Shown in pieces: positions 37,831 to 60,626 of a DNA stretch of 64,000 nucleotides. Both the position numbers and the translations under genes were made by a program. The DNA is from Demequina iriomotensis. GTDB taxonomy: Bacteria > Actinomycetota > Actinomycetes > Actinomycetales > Demequinaceae. Location: contig NZ_BBME01000015.1 of NCBI RefSeq assembly GCF_000971395.1, positions 62,001-126,000 on the forward strand. The letters are read 5' to 3'. Every line of letters starts with the position of its first letter. Position 1 is the stretch's first letter. The notes under the pieces were generated by a model. The model saw nothing but the letters and a program-made list of their open reading frames with translations. It ran no database searches and was not told where the DNA came from.

Positions 37831-38394
37831 TCAGGCGGGACCGTAGAACGCCGTGAGCGTCCTGCCGTTCGCGTCGGTCGCAGACAGCGACGCGGCGATC
37901 TCGGCCTTCGCGTTGTTCACCTCGAACCAGAAGTTGTCGAGGTTGATCCCCTCGTAGGCCTGCGACGGGAGCGCGCCCGCGTAGGTCAGCACCAGCGTCG
38001 CGGTGTGCCCGGACACGGTGGGCGAGCCGACCGCGCGCCACGTGCTCGTGCCGCCGAGCGCGTTCCCGATCCCCCACCGCAACGCCGAGTCCGCCTTGGT
38101 CACCACGACGGTGAGCGTGAGCGAGCTGATCGCCACCGCCGTGGTCTGGCCCGCGTCGGGCCGGAGCTGGGCGTAGAACCCGAGCACCTTGGCCTTGACG
38201 TTGGCGCCGAGGTCCGCGACCCAGTAGTGATCCTGGTAGTGCGACTGCGCGCCGAGCGACACGACGCCCGCGGGAGCGCCTGAAGGCCCGCCGCCGCCGG
38301 ACGCCGCGAGGGCGGGCGTGGAGGCGGCGACAAGAATCGCCGGGGTGGCCCAGGCCGCCCCGGCGACCACACGCCTGCGCGAGATCTCCGTCAC
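37831..38394 (-). CDS. Tat-exported small protein, paralogue 5 of 5
   Basis: 187 aa. The N-terminal signal ISRRRVVAGAAW.TPAIL ends in ALAA, a twin-arginine-type export signal. The Gly/Ser/Pro-rich start of the mature part is followed by alternating hydrophobic strands (TAVAISSLTLTVVVTKAD, HTATLVLTYAGALP), which suggests a beta-sandwich. GTG start at 38394 with CATACT 7 nt upstream, possibly leaderless. It is last in a tandem array whose members share the signal sequence but little of the mature part. No known family recognised. Confidence 0.75.
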   Translation of the reverse strand: MTEISRRRVVAGAAWATPAILVAASTPALAASGGGGPSGAPAGVVSLGAQSHYQDHYWVADLGANVKAKVLGFYAQLRPDAGQTTAVAISSLTLTVVVTKADSALRWGIGNALGGTSTWRAVGSPTVSGHTATLVLTYAGALPSQAYEGINLDNFWFEVNNAKAEIAASLSATDANGRTLTAFYGPA

Positions 38395-38457
38395 GCGCTC
38401 AAGTATGAGGCATCACGGCGTCATCTCCGCGCAGCGAAGGTCCTGGAAGAACGCGCC

Positions 38458-38919
38458 CTACGGAAGCGTCACGCTCGACGTGCTGAGGGTGCCGCCGTTC
38501 GCCGTCCCATATGCGGTGAGTGTGAGGGTGTCGCCGTCGACAAACGGCTCGATGTAGAAGAGCGCGAACGCGGTGTCCCCGTTGGAGGGAAGGTCTCCGT
38601 CGGAGAAGATCCACGGGCTGCCGTCGCCCGTGACCTCCCACGGGTCGCCCGGCCCCTCGAGCGTGCCCGAGCCGCTGTACGTCACCTCGACATAGATATC
38701 GGTGATGGGCGTGTCCGGGGTGGTGAAGTTCTGCAGGAGGAACTGGATCTGGGCACGGTTGCCGGTGTTGTCGTTGACCTGGACGTTGGTGAACTCGAGG
38801 ACGAACGAGCTCGACGCGACGGACGGGGTGGCGGTCGCCACCAGCACCGCGGGCGCCGTCCACGCCGCGCCCTGCAGGATCCTCCGTCGGTTGATGCCGT
38901 CGCCGGACGCCTCGGCCAT
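38458..38919 (-). CDS. Tat-exported small protein, paralogue 4 of 5
   Basis: 153 aa. Signal INRRRILQGAAW.APAVLVA ending SVAS. The mature part has conserved Asn/Thr-rich strands (FVLEFTNVQVNDNTGNRAQ) and ends SSVTLP. GAGGAGG lies 6 nt upstream of the ATG at 38919, and a -10 (TAGCCT) is visible near 38960, so it has its own promoter. An in-frame GTG-like extension to 39000 is rejected. Function unknown. Confidence 0.75.
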   Translation of the reverse strand: MAEASGDGINRRRILQGAAWTAPAVLVATATPSVASSSFVLEFTNVQVNDNTGNRAQIQFLLQNFTTPDTPITDIYVEVTYSGSGTLEGPGDPWEVTGDGSPWIFSDGDLPSNGDTAFALFYIEPFVDGDTLTLTAYGTANGGTLSTSSVTLP

Positions 38920-39012
38920 GGTGCCTCCTCGGTGGGGTGGGGAGCGATCACGTAGGGCCAGGCTAAGCGCATATTGTCGGATATGCACCGATTCGCGCAC
39001 GGATGTTGCGCG

Positions 39013-39501
39013 TCAGAGCTGTCCCACGTACGTGGCGGACGCGTCCTGGCCATCCACCGTCCCCGACAGCGTCGCGGTCCAGGTGCTGCCGTTCTGCCCC
39101 TTGTCGAAGGTCACCAGGAACTGGTCGTCCGACGTGATCGGCCCCGGGGCGATGAACACCACGTCGGGGTCGTCCGTCGCGCCGGGCTGCCACGAGGTTC
39201 CTCCCGCGGAGCCGCCCGAGGTGACCTCGACGGTCGCGCCGTTCCCGTTGGTCGGCTCCCAGTGCACGGTGAGCGTCGCGCCCTCGAGCACCACGCCCTC
39301 GGGGAGATGGATGGTGACCAGGTAGAGGTCGTCGTTACCGGACTCGGAGCCCACCACATAAGAGCCGTCGAGCGGGTTCTCCGGCGACACCGTGGCCGAC
39401 GCCGGCGCCGTCGCGACCAGGACCACGGGAACCGCCCAGGCCCCGCCGATGATCACCCCGCGGCGGGAGATCCCGCCGCCGTCGCGCTCGCGCTCGTCCA
39501 T
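39013..39501 (-). CDS. Tat-exported small protein, paralogue 3 of 5
   Basis: 162 aa. Signal ISRRGVIIGGAW.VPVVLVA ending ASAT. The mature part has repeated short strands (YLVTIHLPEGVVLEGATLTV, DQFLVTFDKGQ) and ends GQL. The upstream sequence 39526-39555 (TATCCT -10 plus a GGACGATGCG copy) is nearly identical to the one before paralogue 2. No enzyme motif is seen. Likely an extracellular structural or binding protein. Confidence 0.75.
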   Translation of the reverse strand: MDERERDGGGISRRGVIIGGAWAVPVVLVATAPASATVSPENPLDGSYVVGSESGNDDLYLVTIHLPEGVVLEGATLTVHWEPTNGNGATVEVTSGGSAGGTSWQPGATDDPDVVFIAPGPITSDDQFLVTFDKGQNGSTWTATLSGTVDGQDASATYVGQL

Positions 39502-39555
39502 CCCGCACCCCCGGCTCCGCCACCAGGATAAAAGGGACGATGCGGGCGCGCCAGG

Positions 39556-40011
39556 TCAGGCCGCGGCGGCGGTGCCGATCAGCGTGCCCGCGGCGTCGTA
39601 GAGGCTCAGCGCCGCCGTCACCTCGGCGATGTGGTCGTTGCGGCCCCAGGTCGCGGTGAAGGTCACCGAGACGGCGCCGCTCGCGGCGACCGACGCGGCG
39701 TGCGTGAGCACCATGCCGCTCACACCCCAGGCCGAGCCCGCGGGCACGCTCAGCGTGGCGCCGGGCTTCGAGAGCGACACCGCGACGTAGAAGCCGCCGG
39801 CGAGCGGCTTGGACGCACGCCCCGTCAGCGTGAAGGTCTTCGACTTGTGCGCGACCGACGATCCGCTCGGGCTCAGCGCGAGCGTCGGCTCCGGCGACGT
39901 CGCCGCCGCGGGCGCCGCGGCGGCCACCAGCACGACGGGCGCGGCCCACGCCGCCCCCGCGATCACCCTGCGGCGCGACAGCGCGCCGCGCCCCTCGACG
40001 CGTGACTCCAT
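39556..40011 (-). CDS. Tat-exported small protein, paralogue 2 of 5
   Basis: 151 aa. Signal LSRRRVIAGAAW.APVVLVA ending AAAT. The mature part is Ala/Ser/Gly-rich with a beta pattern (GGFYVAVSLSKPGATLSV, AVSVTFTATWGRND) and ends in GTAAAA. GAGGAG lies 5 nt before the ATG at 40011. Its promoter region 40049-40078 is a 26-of-30 match to that of paralogue 3, so the duplication unit included the promoter. Confidence 0.75.
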   Translation of the reverse strand: MESRVEGRGALSRRRVIAGAAWAAPVVLVAAAAPAAATSPEPTLALSPSGSSVAHKSKTFTLTGRASKPLAGGFYVAVSLSKPGATLSVPAGSAWGVSGMVLTHAASVAASGAVSVTFTATWGRNDHIAEVTAALSLYDAAGTLIGTAAAA

Positions 40012-40089
40012 GATGCTCCTCAGCATGCGGGCTCACCCCGCGCGCTCAGGATAGAGGGCACGATGCGGCCGCGCCAGGGGTGGCGCGCC

Positions 40090-40575
40090 TCACCGGGTCA
40101 GCGTGAGGACCGTGGTGCCGCTCGAGACGCCGGCGTAGGTGATGGTGACCGTGAGCACCGAGGGCGCGCGGGAGACGCCGGTGAGCGCGTAGTCGAAGGT
40201 GCCGAAGAACCCGCTGGTGCGGGTCAGGGTGACCGAGGCTGTCGCCCCGGTGAAGCCGCCGTTGGCGACGCTGACGTTCCAGCCCGATGCCGACGCCGAC
40301 GCCGGGAAGTACAGGCCGGGGATGAAGAACGGCCACTTGGCCACGCTGAACGTCACCATCACCGAGGTCACGGTGATGCCGGACAGCGCATCGGTCCGCG
40401 CGAGGGTGAACCGCCCGCCGTCACTCGTGCTCGACAGCCAGATCCCTGAGAACGCTGGCGACACCGTCGACGCGGCTGCCGGCGGCGACGCGGTCGCGAT
40501 CATCACCGCAGGCGTGAGCCACGCGGCGCCCTGGACCACCCGGCGACGCGAGATGCCGCCCTCAGCACTGCTCAC
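40090..40575 (-). CDS. Tat-exported small protein, paralogue 1 of 5
   Basis: 161 aa. Signal ISRRRVVQGAAW.TPAVMIA ending AAAS. The mature part starts VSPAFSGIWLSS and has Thr/Val-rich strands to the end (VLTVTITYAGVSSGTTVLTL). GTG start at 40575; a -10 (TAGGGT, minus strand) lies near 40625. It is the first of the array and lies 127 bp downstream of the PqqD/HPr-kinase cluster in the same direction. Confidence 0.75.
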   Translation of the reverse strand: MSSAEGGISRRRVVQGAAWLTPAVMIATASPPAAASTVSPAFSGIWLSSTSDGGRFTLARTDALSGITVTSVMVTFSVAKWPFFIPGLYFPASASASGWNVSVANGGFTGATASVTLTRTSGFFGTFDYALTGVSRAPSVLTVTITYAGVSSGTTVLTLTR

Positions 40576-40702: not shown

Positions 40703-40987
40703 TCAGCCCTCGATGACGATCACGCCGCGCTGCACCAGCGCCGTGACGAACTCGCGCAGCACCTCGCCCGGGTCGCGACCTTCGGGTGCGCCGAAGTCCT
40801 CGACCAGCCGCGCGCCGAGCGCGTCGAGCGTGATGCCGTCCCGGGCCGCGTGGACCAGCGCGGTGGCGACGGGCGAGAGCAGCGAGACCTCGTTGCCCGC
40901 GAGCACCAGCATCTGGCCGTCGCGCTCGATCGCGTCGTCCCACACGGAGCGCACGCGCGCGCCGCCGGGCAGCTCCGTCGCGGGCAT
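40703..40987 (-). CDS. PqqD-like peptide-binding protein 2
   Basis: 94 aa. LVLAGNEVSLLSPVATALVHAARDGITLDALGARLVEDF and the final LVQRGVIVI follow the PqqD/RRE pattern: strands, then a winged three-helix part. PqqD-type domains bind peptide leaders and present them to modifying enzymes. Its ATG overlaps the stop of the HPr-kinase-like gene by 1 bp (TGATG), so the two are made together. It is one of two PqqD-like proteins in this cluster. Confidence 0.78.
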   Translation of the reverse strand: MPATELPGGARVRSVWDDAIERDGQMLVLAGNEVSLLSPVATALVHAARDGITLDALGARLVEDFGAPEGRDPGEVLREFVTALVQRGVIVIEG

Positions 40988-42384
40988 CAGGCGGCCCGCC
41001 CGAACAGCTGCGGCATGAGCGGGATGACGTCGCGCGCCTCGCGGTAGCGCAGCCGCGCGAGGCCACCGACGCCCTCGACCATGTCAGCAAGCGTGTGGAG
41101 CCTGCGCGGCAGGCGCGCGAGGTAGCTGATCTGCTCGGACAGGTGCGCGAGCCCCTCGAGCAGGGGCAGCTCCTCGAGGACAGGCCGGTCCGCGTAGATG
41201 TCACGCTCGATCAGCAGCAAGCGGGTGAGGCGCAGGGGTGCGTCCGGCACGGGCACGAGGTCGAGCGACTCGGGCCCCCACTCCTCCTTGAGCCCGCCGA
41301 CGGTGCGGTCGAGGATCGACAGCGGCTTCGGGTAGGCGAGGACCCCGAGCCCCGAGTCGACCGCCAGGGTCTCGTCGGTGACGTAGCCGTAGTGCGCGCC
41401 GAGCGTGCGCGCGAGCGTGGTCTTGCCCGTCCCCGACGGCGCGATGAAGCCCACCACCTCGCCCGTCGGCGACGCGATCCCCGCGGCATGCATGAGCACC
41501 GGCCCGCCGACGCGGCGCTCGATCGCGCGCACGGTGATGGAGCTGGTGAGGAAGTGGATCGCGTGGGAGGGGTCGTCGTACGCGAGGCCGCCGCGTGCGC
41601 GCGCCTCGGCCAGTACCGCGGGATCGCGGTCGACGGTGACCTCGAGCGCGGCCTCGACCGGCGCATCGTCCTCCCCGGCCACCAGGCAGCGGCTCCACAT
41701 CCGCCGCGCGGCGGCGACCACGGGCGCGACGTCGGCGCCGGCGAAGTCGACCGCGACGCGGACGCCGAAGGCGTCGAGCCGCATCGCGTCGGCGCTCGGC
41801 TCGGCCACGGTGGGCGCGGGCAGCAGCGCGGCCCAGATCGAAGAGACCCACGCGGCCGCCTGGTCGATGCGGTCGCCCAGCTGGGAGACGTGCTCCACGT
41901 AGTGCTCGATGGGCGGGAGCTCGAAGTCGAGCGGGATAGAGCGAGCGGCGTCGCGGCGGCGGGCGAGCATCGCGGCATGCTCGGCGAGGGGGGCGGCGCG
42001 CACAGCGCCGTCGTAGAGGAAGGCGAGCTCGGACAGGGAGAACGCGCGGCGCGACACGTGCGGATGGCGAGAGGCCAGCACGTCCCACTCGTCCTTGGTG
42101 CCCGTGATGATGAGGTCGGCGGCGTCGACGATGGCGGAGCTGAGCGAACGCGTACGGAAGCCCGCGGCGTTCGCGCCGTGGCGCTCGATCTCGATGCGGG
42201 CCGCCTCGAGCATCGGCTCGCCGTCGACGGCGTCGAGGCCCGCGCTGGTGACGCGGATGCTGTCCGCGCTCACGCCGTGGCCCTGCAGGTGGCGGCGCAG
42301 CATCCTCTCCCCCGCCGCGGAGCGGCCGGAGTTGCGGGTGTCGACGATTAGCACCCGGAGTCGGGCGGGCCCCTCAGCCGCCAT
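40987..42384 (-). CDS. Pseudo-LMW-tyrosine-phosphatase / HPr-kinase-like fusion
   Basis: 465 aa in two parts. Residues 1-210 align with low-molecular-weight tyrosine phosphatases (TSAGLDAVDGEPM, GFRTRSLSSAIVDAADLII), but the P-loop reads VDTRNSGRS. The catalytic Cys of CxxxxxR is Asp15, while Arg21 remains. The late Asp-Pro acid is also absent (FELPPIEHY). Residues 215-465 are an HPr-kinase-like ATPase with Walker A FIAPSGTGKTTLA near residue 315. The phosphatase half is thus probably a dead binding module. Flanked by a Wzz/tyrosine kinase, PqqD-like proteins and a nucleotidyltransferase, the same components as HPr-rel-type systems. Confidence 0.82.
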   Translation of the reverse strand: MAAEGPARLRVLIVDTRNSGRSAAGERMLRRHLQGHGVSADSIRVTSAGLDAVDGEPMLEAARIEIERHGANAAGFRTRSLSSAIVDAADLIITGTKDEWDVLASRHPHVSRRAFSLSELAFLYDGAVRAAPLAEHAAMLARRRDAARSIPLDFELPPIEHYVEHVSQLGDRIDQAAAWVSSIWAALLPAPTVAEPSADAMRLDAFGVRVAVDFAGADVAPVVAAARRMWSRCLVAGEDDAPVEAALEVTVDRDPAVLAEARARGGLAYDDPSHAIHFLTSSITVRAIERRVGGPVLMHAAGIASPTGEVVGFIAPSGTGKTTLARTLGAHYGYVTDETLAVDSGLGVLAYPKPLSILDRTVGGLKEEWGPESLDLVPVPDAPLRLTRLLLIERDIYADRPVLEELPLLEGLAHLSEQISYLARLPRRLHTLADMVEGVGGLARLRYREARDVIPLMPQLFGRAA

Positions 42385-42388
42385 CCGG

Positions 42389-43957
42389 TCAGGCCTCGCC
42401 GGCCGCCGGCGTCGCGTTGCCTCGCGCGACCACGTGGTCCCAGTCGAGGAGACCCTCGGGCCGCGTGTCCGCCGGACGGCGGGACGATGCGTGGTGCGGC
42501 GGGCTCTTGGGCCCCCGGGGCGCGCGGGGCGCCTCGGGCGCGGGAGCGACGTGCACATCGTCCTCCGGGGCGGGCGCGGGCGCCTGCTCCGCCACGGGAG
42601 CCTGCTTGTACTCGTAGGAGTACGCGTACTGGTCCTTGTGGGCGCCCTTGCGCGGCACCGAGTTGAGGATGACGCCGAGCGCGCGGCCCTTGACCTTGTC
42701 GAGGTTCTGCAGCGCGCGGTCGAGCACGTCGATGGTGGTCCTGCCCGAGCGGGCGACCACCAGCGCGCCGTCGGTGCGCGCCGTCAGCACCGCCGCATCG
42801 GTCACGGGGATGAGCGGCGGGGTGTCGATGATGATGGTGGCGTGCTCGGGGAAGCCGTAGAGCAGGGACTTCATCGCGTCGGAGGCGAGCAGCTCGGAGG
42901 GGTTGGGCGGGATCGCGCCGGAGGCGAGCACGAAGAAGTGGCGCGTGTCGCCGTAGGCCTGCAGCACCTCCTTGGTGGTGGCGCGGCCCACGAGGACGTC
43001 GGTGAGGCCGCCGCCCTCGACCAGGCGCAGCTTCTTGGCGATGACGGGGCGGCGCAGGTCCGCGTCGACCAGGACCACGTCCTGGCCGGAGTCCGCGATG
43101 GCCTCGGCGAGCATGATCGCGACGGTCGACTTGCCGTCGCCGGGCAGCGCTGAGGTGATCACCAGGACGCGCGGCGGGTTGTCGACGTCCATGAACTGGA
43201 GGTTGGTGCGCAGCTGGCGGACCGCCTCCTTCATCGCGAAGTCCTTGCTCGCGCTGTACGCGGGATCGCGCGGGAGACCCGCGTCGAAGGGCAGCGCGCC
43301 CACCACGGGGACGTCGAACTCGCGCTCGATGTCCTCGCTCTTGCGCAGGCGGCGGTCGAGCGCGGCGCGCACCAGCGCGTAGCCGATGCCGAGCGCGAGG
43401 CCCACCAGCAGGCCGAGCGCGACCGCGAGGCGGACGTTGGGCGAGGTGGGCGCGGACGGCAGGACCGCGCTGTCGAGGGTCTGGAGGGCGACCACCGAGG
43501 TGACGTCGTCGGTCGCGCCCTCGTTCTCGAGGTCGGCGACCACGGCGGTCATGCCGGCGATCCACGCCTCGGCCAGGTCGCGCGCCTGCTCGGGCGAGGA
43601 GCCCTTCGCCGCGACGCGTAGCACCGCGGTGTCGAGCGGGTTGGTGACCGTGACGCGCGCGATGAGGGCGTCGGGGCTCGCGTCGAGGCCCAGCTCTCCC
43701 GCGGCGAACTCCGCGACCTTCCGGGACTTCGCGATGTCGAGGTAGCTCTTCACGCGGGACTTGGCGTAGTTGTCGCCCACGAGCGCGCTGCCGAGGTCCT
43801 GGCTCGCGCCGGTGGTGATGATCGCGGAGCCGGTCGCGGTGTAGACCTTCGATTGCGTGAGGGTCCAGCCGAACGCGAGCAGGCCGCCCAGCACGGTCAC
43901 CGCGACGATGACGAGCCAATGCGCGCGGAAGACCCGCAGGTAGTCCTGGAGCTCCAT
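42389..43957 (-). CDS. Polysaccharide co-polymerase / BY-kinase fusion (Wzz-Wzc type) 1
   Basis: 522 aa. Membrane helix 1 (about 15-35), an extracytoplasmic coiled region, helix 2 (about 175-197), then a cytoplasmic tyrosine kinase. Walker A is LPGDGKSTVA, Walker A' VVLVDADLRRP and Walker B TIIIDTPPLIPV, all canonical. A short Tyr cluster (YAYSYEY) is followed by a Pro/Ala-rich tail. Such proteins set polysaccharide chain length and autophosphorylate on C-terminal Tyr. It lies between the two halves of the PqqD/HPr-kinase cluster, 4 bp before the pseudo-phosphatase fusion, which suggests a regulatory link. Confidence 0.9.
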   Translation of the reverse strand: MELQDYLRVFRAHWLVIVAVTVLGGLLAFGWTLTQSKVYTATGSAIITTGASQDLGSALVGDNYAKSRVKSYLDIAKSRKVAEFAAGELGLDASPDALIARVTVTNPLDTAVLRVAAKGSSPEQARDLAEAWIAGMTAVVADLENEGATDDVTSVVALQTLDSAVLPSAPTSPNVRLAVALGLLVGLALGIGYALVRAALDRRLRKSEDIEREFDVPVVGALPFDAGLPRDPAYSASKDFAMKEAVRQLRTNLQFMDVDNPPRVLVITSALPGDGKSTVAIMLAEAIADSGQDVVLVDADLRRPVIAKKLRLVEGGGLTDVLVGRATTKEVLQAYGDTRHFFVLASGAIPPNPSELLASDAMKSLLYGFPEHATIIIDTPPLIPVTDAAVLTARTDGALVVARSGRTTIDVLDRALQNLDKVKGRALGVILNSVPRKGAHKDQYAYSYEYKQAPVAEQAPAPAPEDDVHVAPAPEAPRAPRGPKSPPHHASSRRPADTRPEGLLDWDHVVARGNATPAAGEA

Positions 43958-43987
43958 GGATCCCTCTTCCTCACGTCCCCCGTGCGG

Positions 43988-44308
43988 TCAGTCTAGGGGC
44001 GCACCCTCGACGGACCCGGGGACGCTCGCCGCCTCGACCAGTCCCAGCTCGCGCAGCTGCGCGACGAACCCCTCGACGGCCGCGGCCACCGTCGCCCGGT
44101 CCTGGCCGTGCGCCGCGGCCAGCTCCGCCGCGATCTGGGCCTCGGTGAGCGTGCCGTCGATGCGCGACCAGATCTCGTAGGCGACGGCCTCGAACAGGTA
44201 GGGCGACTGCTGCTCCTCGAGGCGCGGCAGGTTGAGGACCACCGCACGGTCGGGGTGGACCACCTCCGCGAGGCCCGGCGTGCGCCGGAGGGACGAAGCG
44301 TGGGTCAT
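43988..44308 (-). CDS. PqqD-like peptide-binding protein 1
   Basis: 106 aa. VVLNLPRLEEQQSPYLFEA, VAYEIWSRIDGTLTEAQIA and VAQLRELGLVE follow the PqqD fold pattern of strands then helices. The ATG at 44308 overlaps the nucleotidyltransferase TGA as ATGA. PqqD-like proteins usually bind a precursor peptide leader. No obvious ribosomal-peptide precursor or radical-SAM enzyme is near, so the partner is open; the Tat-signal proteins downstream are one candidate set. Confidence 0.75.
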   Translation of the reverse strand: MTHASSLRRTPGLAEVVHPDRAVVLNLPRLEEQQSPYLFEAVAYEIWSRIDGTLTEAQIAAELAAAHGQDRATVAAAVEGFVAQLRELGLVEAASVPGSVEGAPLD

Positions 44309-45276
44309 GGCCGCGCCTCCGCGTCGGGGTTGCCGGGCCGGGTGAGCGACCGGTCGGTGCGCCCCAGCCGTGACCCGAGCACGCCGGCGACGATGCGCGG
44401 CGCGCCGCGCAGCCCGCGCCCGAGGCGGGCGAGCCTGCCGCGCGCGAGGGCGAGGCGGCCGGGCCCGATCTCGGGGTGATCGCGGCGCAGGTCCTTCTCG
44501 GGCCGCCACAGCGCCACCCAGAGCATGCGCGGGCGCTCGCGCCAGGGCGCCGCGGTGATGATCTGCCAATGCAGGGCGGCGGGGACGCCGCCCGCGCCGG
44601 TGCGCAGGCGCCACAAGTCGAGCGCGGGGTCGACGCGCGCGGGCGTGGACGGCGGCAGCGGCACGAACCCTTCGAGGAACGGGCGGCCCGTGTCCTGGCA
44701 GCCCGTCGCGGCGGCGAGGGTGGCGAGGTCCGAGAGCGCCGCATCGTCCAGCGTGGGGAGCACGCGCGCCAGTAGCAGCCGCACCTCCGCGCCGTGGCGG
44801 GTGGTCTGGGCGGGGGTGCGCAGCGCGTGGAGGCCCGCGATGAGGATCGCGCTCGCGCGGTCGGGAATGCTCACCTGGGCGCCGCCGAGCGTGAGAGGCT
44901 CCCGGCGCTCCCACAGCGCCTCGAACACCTCGGCGGGGTCGCGCAGGAAGCCGGGGAAGCGGGTGTGCAGGTCGATGTCGCACGGCCAGCCGGGGTGGAT
45001 GAGCGTCACCGAGTGGGTCGCGAAGAGGTGCGAGAGCTCGGAGCCCTCGCGCTCGTGCCAGCCGGCGGCCTCGAGCGCCGCGCGCATCGTCCCCAGGTCC
45101 GCGGGCGAGACCAGCGCGTCCGCGTCGGCGCTGGTGCGCACGGGCCGCAGGCCGTGGTGGGCCGCGCCGGGGCCCTTGATGAGGAGCACGCGCACCCCGT
45201 GGGCCTCCCCCACGGCCGTCACGAGCGCATGGGCGAGGTCGACCGCATCGGCGGCGCTCAGGACGCTCGGCTCCAC
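44305..45276 (-). CDS. Uncharacterised nucleotidyltransferase (NTP_transf_5-like)
   Basis: 323 aa. VRVLLIKGPGAAHHGLRP then VRTSADADALVSP is the nucleotidyltransferase core, with the D-x-D metal site. DIDLHTRFPGF follows the second conserved region. A -10 TAGTGT (45284-45289) ends 7 nt before the GTG at 45276, so a leaderless start was chosen. Proteins of this type accompany PqqD and HPr-kinase-like genes in lasso-peptide phosphorylation and HPr-rel clusters. Here it heads that set of genes. Confidence 0.75.
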   Translation of the reverse strand: MEPSVLSAADAVDLAHALVTAVGEAHGVRVLLIKGPGAAHHGLRPVRTSADADALVSPADLGTMRAALEAAGWHEREGSELSHLFATHSVTLIHPGWPCDIDLHTRFPGFLRDPAEVFEALWERREPLTLGGAQVSIPDRASAILIAGLHALRTPAQTTRHGAEVRLLLARVLPTLDDAALSDLATLAAATGCQDTGRPFLEGFVPLPPSTPARVDPALDLWRLRTGAGGVPAALHWQIITAAPWRERPRMLWVALWRPEKDLRRDHPEIGPGRLALARGRLARLGRGLRGAPRIVAGVLGSRLGRTDRSLTRPGNPDAEARP

Positions 45277-45449: not shown

Positions 45450-46568
45450 ATGGACCACGGGCTGATCGTGCACGAATGGATCGCACCGCGCGGAGGATCC
45501 GAGAACGTGGTCGACCGCCTCATGCAGGCCTTCCCCGATGCCGAGCTGCTGTGCCTCTGGGACGAGACGCGCGGAGCGAGGTACGCCGGCCGCACGGTGC
45601 ACGAGACCTGGCTGGCGCGTAGTCCGCTGTGGCACAGCAAGGCCGTCGCGCTGCCCTTCATGCCGTCGACATGGCGCGACCGCCACGACGGCGACTTCGA
45701 CTGGATCCTCGCGAGCAGCCACCTGTTCGCGCATCACGTCACGGAGCACGACCGACGCGTGCCGAAGATCGCCTACGTCCACACACCGGCCCGCTATGTC
45801 TGGGCGCCTCAGTACGACGCGCGCGGACGCACGCCTCAGGCGCGTGCGGCAGCACCCATGCTCAAACGGCTCGACCGTCGACGTGCAAGAGAGCTCGACG
45901 GCGTGATCGCCAACAGCGCCTTCGTGCGCGACCGCATCGAGGAGGCGTGGCAGCGCGACGCGGACGTCGTTCATCCGCCTGTCGAGGTGGCGCGGATCCA
46001 GCAGGCCACCTGGCGGGGTCAGCTCACCGAGGATGAGCTTCTGGCGCTCGATGCCCTCCCGGACTGCTTCGTCCTCGGCGCGTCGAGGTTCGTCGAGTAC
46101 AAGCGTCTCGACGCGGTGATCGAAGCGGCCGCGCTTGCAGGGCTGCCCGCCGTGATCGCCGGAGCTGGGCCGCTTGAGGCCTCCCTGCGGCAGTTCGCGA
46201 CGGAGGTCGGCGTTCCCGTCACCTTCGTGGTGGCTCCCTCCACACCTCTCCTTTACGCGCTCTACGAGGCCGCGGCGGTGTTCGTGTTCCCCGCCGTCGA
46301 GGACTTCGGGATCATGCCGGTCGAGGCGATCGCCTCGGGCACGGCGGTGGTCGCCAACCCCGATGGCGGGACCCACGAGTCTGTCGAGCTGACCGGCGGC
46401 GGGACGCTCTCGGAGGACGACTCGCCACGCGGCTTCGCCGCCGCGATCCTCTCCGCCGTCGACCTCGACATGGCCAGACCAAGGGAGCGCGCCCGCCACT
46501 TCGACGCCGCGGCCTTCGACGCGAGGATCACCGCGGCCGTCGACGGCGCGGTGAAGCACGCAGCATGA
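45450..46568 (+). CDS. Glycosyltransferase family 4
   Basis: 372 aa, GT-B fold. The N-terminal half has IVHEWIAPRGGSENV and KIAYVHTPARYVWAP. The C-terminal donor half has VLGASRFVEYKRLD and FVFPAVEDFGIMPVEAIASG, where the E-x7-E motif contacts the nucleotide sugar. GAGGAGG precedes the ATG. First of a five-gene plus-strand operon whose junctions all overlap as ATGA. Donor sugar unknown. The gap 45286-45449 upstream holds a small hairpin (CCTGG / CCAGG) and AT-rich promoter sequence. Confidence 0.88.
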   Translation: MDHGLIVHEWIAPRGGSENVVDRLMQAFPDAELLCLWDETRGARYAGRTVHETWLARSPLWHSKAVALPFMPSTWRDRHDGDFDWILASSHLFAHHVTEHDRRVPKIAYVHTPARYVWAPQYDARGRTPQARAAAPMLKRLDRRRARELDGVIANSAFVRDRIEEAWQRDADVVHPPVEVARIQQATWRGQLTEDELLALDALPDCFVLGASRFVEYKRLDAVIEAAALAGLPAVIAGAGPLEASLRQFATEVGVPVTFVVAPSTPLLYALYEAAAVFVFPAVEDFGIMPVEAIASGTAVVANPDGGTHESVELTGGGTLSEDDSPRGFAAAILSAVDLDMARPRERARHFDAAAFDARITAAVDGAVKHAA

Positions 46569-47551
46569 CCCTCTACGTCGACACCCGCTACGCGGGCGCC
46601 CACGGCATCGGACGCTTCGCATCCGAGGTGCTGCCACGGCTCACGGCTGCCTGGACACCGGTGCCCCGGCTCCATGGGAACCCGACGACGACGCTGGATG
46701 CGCTCCGGCCAGCGCGGTGGCGCCTGCGCGAGGACGACCGCCTCTACTCCCCTGGGTACGCCGCGGGACCGACGCGCGCGACGCAGCTCCTCACCATCCA
46801 CGACCTCATCCATCTCGAAGATCCGGAACAGGCGACGCCCCTCAAGCGCGCCTATTACTCGCGGGTGGTACGCCCAGCCGTCCGGCGGACCCGGGTGGTC
46901 ATGACGGTCTCGGAGACCTCGCGCCGCGCGATCGAGTCATGGGTGGACGATGCGCACGTCGAGGTGGTCGACGTCGGCAACGGCTGCTCCCCCGCGTTCC
47001 GCCCCGACCCCGCTTCGACGCGCGACCCGGATACGTTCGTCTACGTGGGCAACACGAAGCCGCACAAGAACCTCATCACCGCGCTCGCCGCGCTCGCCGT
47101 CGATCGCGATGCGCGGCTCGTCGCGGTGACCCCCCACGCGACCGCGGTCCGTCAGCTCGCCGCCGGGCTCGGCGTCGAGCCACGAGTCGAGGTGGTCACC
47201 GGAGTCGACGACGAGACGCTTGCAGGGATCTACCGGGCGGCCGCGGCACTGGTGATGCCATCGACGCTAGAAGGCTTCGGCCTGCCCGCACTCGAGGCCG
47301 TCAGTTGCGGAACGCCCATCGCCTACTGGGCGGGGTGCCCGAGCATCGCGGAGATCGTCGGCGACGCCGGGGTGCCGGTCGGCTCCCCCACGGACCCCCA
47401 CGAGTGGGCCGCAGGCATGCGCGGTGCGGCCGAGCTCGGCACGGTGACCCCGGCTGCGTCGTGGCGGGAACGCTACGACTGGGACCACGTCGCGCGGCGC
47501 GTCGACACCGTGCTCGAGCGCTCCGCGCAGGCTTCGGCGGTGTCCCGATGA
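46565..47551 (+). CDS. Glycosyltransferase family 4
   Basis: 328 aa. DTRYAGAHGIGRFASEVLPRL is the glycine-rich N-terminal acceptor loop. TIHDLIHLEDPEQ is a common GT4 segment. The C-terminal TFVYVGNTKPHKNL and VMPSTLEGFGLPALEAVSCG form the donor site. Overlaps the preceding and following genes by 4 bp, so all are co-translated. Mannosyl- or similar transfer onto a lipid-linked oligosaccharide is inferred. Confidence 0.88.
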   Translation: MTLYVDTRYAGAHGIGRFASEVLPRLTAAWTPVPRLHGNPTTTLDALRPARWRLREDDRLYSPGYAAGPTRATQLLTIHDLIHLEDPEQATPLKRAYYSRVVRPAVRRTRVVMTVSETSRRAIESWVDDAHVEVVDVGNGCSPAFRPDPASTRDPDTFVYVGNTKPHKNLITALAALAVDRDARLVAVTPHATAVRQLAAGLGVEPRVEVVTGVDDETLAGIYRAAAALVMPSTLEGFGLPALEAVSCGTPIAYWAGCPSIAEIVGDAGVPVGSPTDPHEWAAGMRGAAELGTVTPAASWRERYDWDHVARRVDTVLERSAQASAVSR

Positions 47552-48468
47552 CCGCGATGCCGAACACCTTCATCGTCGGCGCACCCAAGTGCGGCACGAC
47601 GGCGCTCGCGCAGTACCTGAGCGAGCGGCCCGATGTGTTCTTCTCACAACCGAAGGAGCCGCACTTCTGGGCGACCGACATCCCCAAGGGCCGCCACGAG
47701 ATGGTGCCGGCGAACCTGGCCGAGTACCGGGCGCTGTTCGCCGCCGCGGATCCTGCGACCCACGCCGTGATCGGTGAGGGATCGACCAGCTACCTGCGTT
47801 CCTCGGCAGCGGTCCCCGCAGTCCTGGGCGAGGTTCCCGAGGCACGGTTCATCGCGATGCTGCGCGACCCGGTAGAGGTGGTGCAGGCCTTCCACGGGGA
47901 GCAGTACTACGTACGTTGCGAGGACCTGCAGGACTTCGAGGCGGCATGGAGGCTTCAGGACGCCCGCGAACAGGGGCACGGGCTCCCACCCGGCGCGGTT
48001 GGCGACCAGGTGCTCTATCGCAGGGTCGCGGCGTTCGCAGATCAGGTCGAGCGGTTCTTCGCGGCGGCGCCCGAGGACCAGCGCCTGGTGCTGCTTCTCG
48101 ACGACCTCCGCGCCGACCCTGCCGCGGCGTACGCGCGCGCGCTCGACTTTCTGGGCCTCCCACGGGACGGACGCACGGAGTTCGCGCCGGTGCACCAGGC
48201 GCATGCGCCACGCTTCCCCGCACTGTCGAAGGCGCTGCTGCACCCGCCGAAGGCGCTGGTGAAGCCCATGCATGCCGCACGCATGATGCTGCTCGAGCAC
48301 GACACCCCGGCGGTCCGCACGCTCAAGGGGAAGATGCGGGTCGAGAAGCCCCGCGAGGCGATCTCGCCCGCGCTCGAGGCGGAGATCCGGGCATGGTTCG
48401 CGCCCGACGTCGCACGCCTCGAGGACCTCTTGGGGCGTGACCTCTCCACCTGGAAGGCCACGCGATGA
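47548..48468 (+). CDS. PAPS-type sulfotransferase
   Basis: 306 aa. TFIVGAPKCGTTALAQYLSE is the 5'-phosphosulfate loop of the sulfotransferase fold. RFIAMLRDPVEVVQAFHGEQ is the 3'-phosphate region. A C-terminal EAEIRAWFAPDVARLEDLLG helix is common in the heparan-sulfotransferase-like group. It sits inside the GT4 operon with ATGA overlaps on both sides, so sulfation of the polysaccharide repeat is the likely role. No PAPS synthase is seen in the window. Confidence 0.88.
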   Translation: MTAMPNTFIVGAPKCGTTALAQYLSERPDVFFSQPKEPHFWATDIPKGRHEMVPANLAEYRALFAAADPATHAVIGEGSTSYLRSSAAVPAVLGEVPEARFIAMLRDPVEVVQAFHGEQYYVRCEDLQDFEAAWRLQDAREQGHGLPPGAVGDQVLYRRVAAFADQVERFFAAAPEDQRLVLLLDDLRADPAAAYARALDFLGLPRDGRTEFAPVHQAHAPRFPALSKALLHPPKALVKPMHAARMMLLEHDTPAVRTLKGKMRVEKPREAISPALEAEIRAWFAPDVARLEDLLGRDLSTWKATR

Positions 48469-49595
48469 AGGACGGGCTGAAGGTGACCTTCGTGGACCAC
48501 TCCGGAGCACTCGGCGGCGGTCAGCTGGCGCTCGCCCAGTACCTCGACCTCCCGAGCGACCTCGAACGAAGCGCCGTCATCCTGCAGGACGGACCGCTGA
48601 CTGCACGGCTCCGTGCCGCACACCACGACGTGGTGACGCTCGGTCCCGGAACCGGCCGAGCGTCAGCCATTCGCCGAGCTCGGGCGCTGCGCGACGCCCT
48701 CGACGCCCTCGCTCCCGACGTCGTGGTCGCGAACAGCCTTCGCGCCGCACTGGCCCTCCGGCTGTCGCGCAGCCGCGTCCGCCCACGGCTGTGCCTCCTG
48801 CGCATCGGCTTCACACGCGCCGCGATGCCTGGCTGGCGCAAAGCACTGTATACGCGCCTGGTGCTGCCCGGCTTCGACGCGGTTCTCGCCAACAGTGAAT
48901 GGAGTGCCTCGACCGTCCCGGCGTCGCTCGCACACGTGCCCCTGGAGGTCACGTACTCGGTCAGCGGATCTCGGCGAGTCGAGGGCAACGGAGCCTCGTC
49001 GCCATTCACCGGCGACCGCGAGCTGCGAGTCCTGTCGCTCAACCGCGTCGCGCCGTGGAAGGGGATCCATGTCGCGATCGAGGCGATCGCGCGGCTTCGC
49101 GCTCAGCACTCAGGGGTGCGCGTGTCTCTTCGTGTGGCGGGCGCCCCTCAGTTCGGCGAGGAGGACTACCTCCGCGATATCACGGCACGCGCTGCCGCCA
49201 GCGACGGCACCGTCGACCTGGTCGGCCACGTCGACGACATTGCGCCTGCGCTCGAGTGGGCCGATGTGGTGCTGAGCACATCGATCGATCCGGAGCCCTA
49301 CGGGCAGACTGTGGTGCAGGCTCTCTGCGCTGGACGGCCCGTCGTCGTGACCGATCAGGGCGGACCTGCGGAGATCGTCCGACGCGTCGGAGGCGGTCTC
49401 CTCGTGCCTGCGGGGGATGCGGATGCCCTCGCACAGGCCCTCGGGTCGCTTGTCCGAGATCCGGCACGGCTCGCGCAGCTGCGCGAGGAGACCGCACACG
49501 CGCCAGCGGTCTATGGCGACGACGCGGTGGTCTCACGCCTGGAGCGCGCGATCCGCGCGTCGCTGCAGCAAACCTTCGACGGGGCCGCGCGATGA
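48465..49595 (+). CDS. Glycosyltransferase family 4
   Basis: 376 aa. FVDHSGALGGGQLALAQYL is the N-terminal glycine-rich loop. LRVLSLNRVAPWKGIHVAIEA and STSIDPEPYGQTVVQALCAG are the donor site with its glutamine-for-glutamate variation at the first position of E-x7-E (YGQTVVQAL). Coupled to both neighbours by ATGA overlaps. GC is slightly lower than in the housekeeping region. Confidence 0.87.
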   Translation: MKDGLKVTFVDHSGALGGGQLALAQYLDLPSDLERSAVILQDGPLTARLRAAHHDVVTLGPGTGRASAIRRARALRDALDALAPDVVVANSLRAALALRLSRSRVRPRLCLLRIGFTRAAMPGWRKALYTRLVLPGFDAVLANSEWSASTVPASLAHVPLEVTYSVSGSRRVEGNGASSPFTGDRELRVLSLNRVAPWKGIHVAIEAIARLRAQHSGVRVSLRVAGAPQFGEEDYLRDITARAAASDGTVDLVGHVDDIAPALEWADVVLSTSIDPEPYGQTVVQALCAGRPVVVTDQGGPAEIVRRVGGGLLVPAGDADALAQALGSLVRDPARLAQLREETAHAPAVYGDDAVVSRLERAIRASLQQTFDGAAR

Positions 49596-59121: not shown

Positions 59122-59240
59122 GAAACCCACCATACCTGGACAAATCAATATGCCAACCAGTTCGGCGAGGCCCCTCCCGCATCGGCCGCGTCCGTGTGAC
59201 AATTGCGGCAAATGCCATCTTCGGCCCTCGGGAGGCACGA

Positions 59241-60626
59241 GTGGAGCTGGGCGACTACATCCGCATCTTGCGCAAGAACTGGGTGGTCATCGTCGCTCTG
59301 ACGGCGCTCGGCGGTCTGGTGGGCCTGAGCTACGGGATGCTTGCGACGCCCACGTACGGCGCCTCCGCGACGGTATTCGTCTCCACCGCGGACTCGGAGA
59401 GCGTAGGCGAACTTGCTCAGGGCAACTCCTTCACCCAACAGCGCGTGAAGACCTATGCAGACCTGGTGAAGACGTCGGCCGTGCTGCAGCCGGTGCTCTC
59501 GGAGCTCGCGCTCAGCTGGCCCGTCGCGCGTGCGCGTCTCCAGGTGAGCGCCACGGCACCGTTGGACACCACGGTCATCGACGTGACGGCGCACGATGCG
59601 GATCCGGTGTTCGCGGCCTCGCTCGCGACCGCGACGGCGAACCAGCTCATCGCGACGGTGCAGGAGATCGAGACCACGAACATCGAGGCCGGCTCGCCCG
59701 TGCGGCTCACCGTGGTGCAGGAGGCCGAGGTCCCGCAGCACCCCGAGAGCCCGAAGAAGTCGCTCAACGTCGCCCTAGGCCTCGTCGTGGGCGCCGCGCT
59801 CGGCGTGGGGATTGCGCTCATCCGCGCTGCGCTCGACACCCGCGTGCGCAATGAGCGCGACCTCGAGCGCATCACAGATGCGCCCGTGCTCGGAGGGATC
59901 GCCTACGACCCGCATGCACGCCAGCGCCCGCTCATCGTCCACGAGGACGCGCTCAGCATCCGCGCCGAGTCCTTCCGGACGCTGCGCACCAACCTCCAGT
60001 TCCTCGACGCCGACCGTCCCGAGAAGAGGTTCGTGCTCACCTCGTCGGTGCCCTCCGAGGGCAAGTCCACCACCGCCGCGAACCTCGCGATCACGCTCGC
60101 CGATGCGGGGGCGCGGGTGCTGCTGGTCGGCGCCGACCTGCGCCGCCCCAAGATCGCGAGCTACATGGGCATCGAGGACGCCGTCGGACTCACGGACGTG
60201 CTCATCGGCCGCGTCGATCTGACCTCGGCGGTACAGCGATGGGGCCACTCGGAGCTCTACCTGCTGCCCGCCGGATCCATCCCGCCCAACCCGTCGGAGC
60301 TGCTCGGCAGCTCGCTGATGGAGCGGCTGGTCGACCGCCTCGATGCGGATTACGACTACGTGCTCTACGACGCGCCACCGTTGCTGCCCGTCACAGACGC
60401 CGCGGTACTCGCTCGACTGGTCGGTTCGACCGTGCTCGTGGTCGCGTCGGGGAAGACGCACTCGCACCAGGTCGACAGTGCGATCGCGTCCCTCGAGACC
60501 GTGGGTGCGCCGCTGTCGGGGCTCGTCCTCACGATGCTCGCCACCAAAGGCCCGGATGCGTACGGCTACGGGCGCTACGGGTACCGCTACGACAGCAACG
60601 AGCGCAGCGAGCGGGCGCGGCGGTAG
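59241..60626 (+). CDS. Polysaccharide co-polymerase / BY-kinase fusion (Wzz-Wzc type) 2
   Basis: 461 aa. Helix 1 (about 15-35), external coiled part, helix 2 (about 174-194) and a cytoplasmic kinase. Walker A is VPSEGKSTTAANLA. Walker B is YVLYDAPPLLPV. The Walker A' segment reads VLLVGADLRRP: the first Asp of the usual D-x-D is Gly. The C-terminal Tyr cluster is YGYGRYGYRY. GTG at 59241 follows GGGAGG. It is paralogous to the protein at 42389, which keeps the Asp. It lies beside the initiating sugar transferase, so it is the locus-specific copy. Confidence 0.9.
   Translation: MELGDYIRILRKNWVVIVALTALGGLVGLSYGMLATPTYGASATVFVSTADSESVGELAQGNSFTQQRVKTYADLVKTSAVLQPVLSELALSWPVARARLQVSATAPLDTTVIDVTAHDADPVFAASLATATANQLIATVQEIETTNIEAGSPVRLTVVQEAEVPQHPESPKKSLNVALGLVVGAALGVGIALIRAALDTRVRNERDLERITDAPVLGGIAYDPHARQRPLIVHEDALSIRAESFRTLRTNLQFLDADRPEKRFVLTSSVPSEGKSTTAANLAITLADAGARVLLVGADLRRPKIASYMGIEDAVGLTDVLIGRVDLTSAVQRWGHSELYLLPAGSIPPNPSELLGSSLMERLVDRLDADYDYVLYDAPPLLPVTDAAVLARLVGSTVLVVASGKTHSHQVDSAIASLETVGAPLSGLVLTMLATKGPDAYGYGRYGYRYDSNERSERARR

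Follow-up and report, generated by a model that had tools for sequence, protein, structure and literature searches.

Known serine-tagging systems and the Demequina locus

Leader peptides bound by recognition elements (RREs) for ribosomally synthesized and post-translationally modified peptides (RiPPs) carry the motif [Y/W]xxPx[L/V/I/F/A], established by crystal structures and mutagenesis for the leaders of lasso peptides and of linear polyphosphorylated peptides (LPPs) (PMC13381572). In the LPP consensus YxxPxVLxHQxIxFETxxS the kinase LppK phosphorylates the Ser at Y+18 and the leader is cut at Y+15 (PMC13381572). LPP systems, which reside in capsule or exopolysaccharide (EPS) loci and combine a discrete RRE (LppB), an HprK-like kinase (LppK) and an NTP transferase (LppN), were termed restricted to Bacillota, and the role of the Bacillota counterparts was left unknown (Popov et al. 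2026, PMC13381572). For the lasso peptide pseudomycoidin, a review describes a phosphate placed on a Ser by PsmK, followed by hexoses that depend on the NTP-transferase PsmN (PMC9266682). LPP-type parts are also present in the window analysed here, a 64,000-nucleotide stretch of Demequina iriomotensis DNA, namely an HprK-like kinase whose P-loop and catalytic motifs are intact, a discrete RRE, an NTP transferase and a [Y/W]xxPx[L/V/I/F/A] leader followed by a variable C-terminal part. Positions 40703–45276 hold five real, co-oriented minus-strand genes encoding an NTP_transf_5 protein, PqqD-1, a Wzz/bacterial tyrosine kinase (BY-kinase), a fusion of a phosphatase-like domain with an HPrK/PEPCK-like kinase domain, and PqqD-2 (Table 1). 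Just after PqqD-2, and like it on the minus strand, 37831–40575 encode five small secreted proteins, termed clients below, whose mature parts are unrelated and whose signals are near-identical. We consider it fairly probable that this set constitutes an RRE-guided modification system acting on proteins exported by the twin-arginine translocation (Tat) pathway; the motif, its spacing, the enzyme set and the co-occurrence of signal and kinase are independent lines in agreement. A sequence-only reading of the same DNA had named the five genes and their domains, related them to the kinase/nucleotidyltransferase/PqqD trio of lasso peptides and linked them to glycan synthesis. Pfam/NCBIfam profiles and fold matches bear out the gene and domain calls, and the kinship and the glycan link hold as well; its main omission was the five secreted proteins just downstream, the candidate substrates.

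The likeness to LPP systems extends from the enzymes and the EPS setting to the leader, a conserved [Y/W]xxPx[V/I] with a Ser at +17/+18, a cut at +15 and a variable part behind. In the clients the Ser lies at W+17 and the A-x-A site at W+15, versus Y+18 and Y+15 in LPPs. In contrast, LPP precursors comprise 35–200 residues and rely on an MsbA-like pump for export and on a dedicated SipW-like peptidase, whereas in Demequina a Tat-type signal peptide serves as the leader of proteins with ~150–500 residues, the clients may be scattered and the host is actinobacterial. No SipW-like signal peptidase I (SpI) is found in the cluster, the single Peptidase_S26 of the genome lying on another contig, and no MsbA-like transporter either, ABC_membrane genes being present on other contigs only. 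The lack of a dedicated peptidase or pump nearby fits export by Tat and the sole housekeeping Peptidase_S26, and because of it the system is regarded as LPP-like in its working but is not filed as LPP. Paeninodin and pseudomycoidin similarly involve an HprK-like Ser kinase (PadeK, PsmK), nucleotidyltransferase-dependent hexoses (PsmN) and an RRE-bound WxxP leader motif, but the modified Ser is there C-terminal in a short core peptide. Neither a lasso cyclase nor a B2 protease was seen among the cluster or scanned neighbour genes, in which no search aimed at them was made. The HPr-rel-A system (TIGR04352 HprK_rel_A with TIGR04353 PqqD_rel_X) also pairs an HPrK-like kinase with a PqqD-family partner; unlike its members, the window kinase (13.6 bits versus a curated cut-off of 200) and PqqD-1 (26.3 versus 35) stay below the cut-offs. 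HprK_rel_A is matched weakly but consistently, below cut-off, by 28 of 32 kinase relatives; the kinase is related to this family and is no member of it by the curated cut-off. Exosortase/PEP-CTERM and sortase/LPXTG resemble the Demequina system in having one machine, many clients and a shared sorting signal, often near an EPS locus, and through a choice-of-anchor domain in two clients. In Demequina, by contrast, the signal is N-terminal, recognition is likely cytoplasmic by the RRE, the chemistry is probably ATP-dependent on Ser, and there is no transpeptidase. No RRE system linked to Tat turned up in the literature that was searched. The Demequina cluster looks like a machine that recognises an export signal and probably places a phosphate or a sugar on a fixed serine behind it; such tagging has been described for short Bacilli peptides and is not known for entire exported proteins.

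The client signal and its association with the kinase

The five client signals of the window follow the consensus (S/N)RR(R/G)xxxG(A/G)AWxxP(A/V)(I/V)...x-S, or in simplified form SRRRxxxGAAW-xx-P-x-[IV]...PAxA-x-S. Motif statistics cover 86 client signals, 46 from Demequina and 40 from other families, and the register is the same in all 86, with RR at −9/−8, W at 0 and P at +3, while I/V at +5 is near-invariant; RR, W and P belonged to the pattern by which clients were selected and are invariant in the profile matches too. Pro+12 (85/86) is followed by A+13 and A+15, and the near-invariant A-x-A together with the twin Arg (100%) and a hydrophobic region gives the clients their Tat-type features. 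A Ser occupies W+17 in 78 of the 86 (39/46 in Demequina and 39/40 in other families, the remaining one having Thr), and conservation stops after it. In a rough control with other signal-like N-termini, Ser was present at the equivalent position in 6 of 51. Most mature parts fall outside the Pfam families. Ig-like domains are present in a few, and choice-of-anchor G, an NCBIfam domain name applied to proteins that occur with various surface anchors, is present in two. No C-terminal anchor (LPXTG tail or transmembrane segment) was found on the clients, the one internal LPxTG match being without a hydrophobic tail. In almost every fusion locus of Demequina, clients are neighbours of the cluster, most copies ~10 kb or less from the fusion. 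At L143 (G022:C1:1716724-1719303) three clients belong to a second EPS-like locus, which has a Wzz of its own and a match to a fragment of PqqD-1, and no kinase.

The position of the signal could be read as quality control only, with PqqD serving the Tat signal as a chaperone of the TorD/DmsD type and phosphorylation as a transient export licence that leaves no lasting tag. Known Tat proofreading chaperones act on the signal peptide, where the RRE motif also lies, and Tat is post-translational. However, the near-invariant Ser lies beyond the predicted cleavage site and thus stays on the mature protein, NTP_transf_5 would be idle, and Pfam detects no cofactor domain in the clients that would need proofreading, which makes a pure export licence quite improbable.

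The full-length fusion is present in 20 further Demequina genomes (21 including the window) at 40–81% identity, the named relatives D. gelatinilytica, D. subtropica and D. mangrovi having 74–81%; D. gelatinilytica NBRC 109390 is a laboratory strain with the cluster. A collection scan with the fusion returned three Demequina type strains only; being too narrow, it was replaced by whole-genome searches. Searched against 44 Demequina genomes, the signal profile matches 23, comprising 21/21 fusion genomes and 2 of the 23 others, one with unfused kinase copies (G040) and one with a single signal copy (G017). Of 396 genomes searched in the order, 87 have the signal, 86 the kinase family and 79 both. 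Signal and kinase are associated, overall (Fisher p=6e-65) and within genera (Cochran-Mantel-Haenszel p=3e-17, or 7e-11 without Demequina). In a sample of the class, strong kinase matches outside the order are confined to eight genomes of one family in another order, and all eight carry the signal in up to 14 dispersed copies, constituting an independent replicate. There is usually one kinase per genome and many clients, often unlinked. The co-occurrence within and beyond the order, with dispersed copies, therefore indicates that one machine serves many clients. The motif was rejected as a general Tat feature because ~300 sampled genomes of the order are without it, nearly all of them kinase-free.

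The same distribution bears on a second alternative, in which the PqqD/kinase/nucleotidyltransferase set acts on an EPS-assembly component or an unseen small peptide, and the WxxP...S proteins are co-travelling matrix proteins whose motif is a Tat-signal subtype. Clients, BY-kinase and glycosyltransferases do share one locus, and Ig-like clients would suit a matrix role. Nevertheless, clients of other families are scattered over the genome yet track the kinase, the motif is an RRE-bound leader motif ending at a fixed Ser that an ordinary Tat signal could do without, and no short precursor gene is seen in the window cluster; we regard this explanation as unlikely.

The kinase, its dead phosphatase domain and their partners

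No Pfam family is dedicated to the HPrK-like half of the fusion; most of its Pfam/NCBIfam matches are to generic P-loop families (ABC, AAA), and these were set aside. The isolated domain is modelled with a mean pLDDT of 95 and matches the folds of PEPCK (1os1, query-normalised TM 0.61) and HPr kinase/phosphatase (1knx). The P-loop, LHAAG, TDET and YPKPLS are invariant or nearly so over 32 aligned domains from several families. In other families of the order PqqD-2 often forms a C-terminal extension of the kinase (L069, L072, L077, L078, L082, L085), making RRE and kinase physically one protein. In two other genomes without WxxP clients (G147 and G199, loci L073 and L076) the kinase is followed by a small PqqD-like gene beside a long protein with VGRRxLRYTAT..., and may have a second use. 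The class sample also holds remoter HPrK-like kinases (families f27, f34, f38, f39, f47 and f49; E from 1e-11 to 1e-18) that lack an accompanying Tat motif and would belong to related systems with other clients.

The PqqD-1 family profile matches PqqD (3g2b), PbaB1 (9x90), TbiB1 (5v1u) and LppB (9x8z). The matches of PqqD-2 are weak in profile (PqqD E=0.09, Lant_dehydr_N E=0.0026) and in structure. In NTP_transf_5, KG and the acidic triad D51/D53/D102 are invariant in 24/24 homologues.

The N-terminal half of the fusion (model mean pLDDT 89.5) matches the low-molecular-weight protein tyrosine phosphatase family LMWPTP (PF01451) over residues 11–103 with E=2.4e-8, above the cut-off, and Foldseek assigns it a Wzb fold (Wzb 2wmy, target-normalised TM 0.84); the modelled folds agree with the LMWPTP-like and HPrK-like calls of the sequence-only reading. 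Wzb/Wzc-type pairs share with the fusion this fold and an adjoining BY-kinase, but the catalytic Cys is absent from 21/21 fusions, its position being taken by Asp in 18, Gly in two and Ser in one. No canonical acid Asp-Pro is seen in the alignment of fusion homologues. The loss of Cys (to Asp) and of the acid Asp-Pro proposed for the window protein is confirmed, and intact-Cys homologues in the same clusters, named beforehand as contrary evidence, number 0 of 21. The P-loop Arg is present in the 18 Asp proteins and gone in the other three. An Asp at the Cys position with the Arg kept suggests that an internal salt bridge occupies the place of the phosphate in these 18 sequences. Taken together, the 21 proteins point to a phosphate site that is permanently filled or abandoned. 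The fused form was found in Demequina only, and since the same kinase in other families of the order has no phosphatase domain, this domain counts as an addition specific to Demequina, outside the core. Two intact LMWPTPs lie on the same contig ~15 and 21 kb past the window end (L002 and L003, P-loops VCTGNICRSP and VCSGNLCRSP, with DPY) and are candidate working phosphatases of the BY-kinases.

The sequence-only reading went further in proposing that the dead domain reads phosphotyrosine on the tail of the neighbouring BY-kinase and gates a serine-kinase activity in glycan synthesis. The BY-kinase does lie immediately upstream in 21/21 loci, the Tyr cluster of its tail is retained among homologues, the closest solved structures to the domain include Wzb and AmsI, and the domain remains folded and conserved. 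This part of the reading is nonetheless unsupported because the phosphate-binding loop appears not to be preserved as such, the Arg being retained in 18 of the 21 but facing an Asp there, and Cys and Arg both being lost in three. In addition, the phosphatase half has changed more quickly than the kinase half (e.g. 50 versus 64%, 30 versus 46% identity), the kinases of other families lack the domain, so that reading phosphotyrosine cannot be the core function, and the co-occurrence with clients would be left without explanation. A phosphotyrosine reader is accordingly very doubtful, and the domain would most likely serve for docking or scaffolding towards the adjacent BY-kinase/EPS machinery.

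Proposed route and gene neighbourhood

In the RRE-guided modification of Tat-exported proteins, PqqD-1 and/or PqqD-2 would bind W-x-x-P-x-[IV] within the client signal peptide in the cytoplasm and the client would be handed to the HPrK/PEPCK-like kinase, resulting in phosphorylation of the Ser at W+17. NTP_transf_5 would probably add a sugar or nucleotidyl group to the phospho-serine, drawing on the glycan pathway next to it. The client, modified and folded, would leave via Tat and signal peptidase I would cleave after A-x-A, so that the mature client would begin with x-Ser, the Ser being modified. This residue would most likely tie the secreted protein, in several cases Ig-like, to the exopolysaccharide of the same locus, while in Demequina only the kinase would have acquired the catalytically dead Wzb-like domain, most likely for docking or scaffolding. 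The sequences themselves show the genes, the dead phosphatase, the folds, the motif with its fixed Ser and the co-occurrence, from which the chemistry is inferred. RRE binding, the Ser kinase and the nucleotidyltransferase step are supported by homology to the described systems, and attachment to polysaccharide is plausible.

Several points weigh against this route. The attachment is deduced from gene neighbourhood, the Tat routing is a prediction from the RR motif, and PqqD-2 falls under the Pfam cut-off. The Ser at W+17 is absent in 7 of the 46 Demequina clients, and its count in other families (39/40) is somewhat biased, as the client profile contained the Ser column and better matches were sampled. 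Eight of the 396 genomes have the signal only and seven the kinase only. Search artefacts were rejected as the source of these mismatches; a re-search scoring more candidates still left 8 genomes without kinase and 7 without motif. One genome without kinase (G341) holds nine client signals (L100, L104, L123) and, at C11:668303, a short stretch that resembles the kinase, contains two stops and may be a remnant.

More tentatively, Actinomycetota may here have a new class of system for maturing and attaching surface proteins by an N-terminal sorting signal, in which the Tat signal doubles as an RRE leader, a cytoplasmic HPrK-like kinase and a nucleotidyltransferase build a phospho-sugar on mature residue 2, and scattered secreted proteins become linked to exopolysaccharide. 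RRE-guided modification is established for peptide natural products and would here seemingly be aimed at whole exported proteins via their export signal, in roughly one in five of the genomes sampled from the order. A testable substrate, site and enzyme would become available for the HPrK/PqqD/NTP_transf_5 sets of EPS loci. If true, this would be a new route tying proteins to the polysaccharide matrix, a cytoplasmic, ATP-driven counterpart of exosortase and sortase.

Table 1 Features of the Demequina iriomotensis window (positions within the window)
Feature	Position	Strand	Evidence or remarks
NTP_transf_5 nucleotidyltransferase-fold protein	44305..45276	-	PF14907 E=3e-12; candidate sugar/nucleotidyl transferase on phospho-Ser
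PqqD-1, discrete RRE	43988..44308	-	PF05402 E=3e-12
Wzz/BY-kinase	42389..43957	-	TIGR01007, Wzz, GNVR; Tyr-rich tail YAYSYEY
Fusion, dead Wzb-like LMWPTP domain + HPrK/PEPCK-like kinase domain	40987..42384	-	Homologues, fold matches
Pseudo-phosphatase domain of fusion	41830..42384	-	VDTRNSGRS replaces VCxGNxCRS; acid Asp-Pro missing
HPrK/PEPCK-like kinase domain of fusion	40987..41787	-	LHAAG, APSGTGKTT P-loop, YVTDET, YPKPLS conserved
PqqD-2, divergent RRE-like	40703..40987	-	Weak profile matches
Client 1	40090..40575	-	Client signal match; Tat-type signal SRRRVVQGAAWLTPAV...PPAAAS, variable mature part
Client 1 signal motif, twin Arg to Ser at W+17	40468..40548	-	W 40519-40521, Ser 40468-40470
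Client 2	39556..40011	-	Client signal match; SRRRVIAGAAWAAPVV...PAAATS
Client 3	39013..39501	-	Client signal match; SRRGVIIGGAWAVPVV...ASATVS
Client 4	38458..38919	-	Open reading frame and genome search match G000:C13:100806-100898; NRRRILQGAAWTAPAV...PSVASS
Client 5	37831..38394	-	Client signal match; SRRRVVAGAAWATPAI...PALAAS
Glycosyltransferase	46565..47551
Sulfotransferase	47551..48468
Glycosyltransferase	48465..49595
Second Wzz/BY-kinase	59196..60626	+	~39% identical to that of the cluster

The start codon of PqqD-1 overlaps the stop of NTP_transf_5 (ATGA), and the cluster's Wzz/BY-kinase scores 141.6 bits against TIGR01007, above the cut-off. BY-kinase, fusion and PqqD-2 are contiguous in 20/20 relatives, with NTP_transf_5 and PqqD-1 a few kilobases from the fusion. 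The window is an EPS region with glycosyltransferases, a flippase-like Polysacc_synt protein, a sulfotransferase and a second Wzz/BY-kinase, so that the EPS superlocus has two of the latter. The sulfotransferase lies between two glycosyltransferases, making a sulfated EPS possible.

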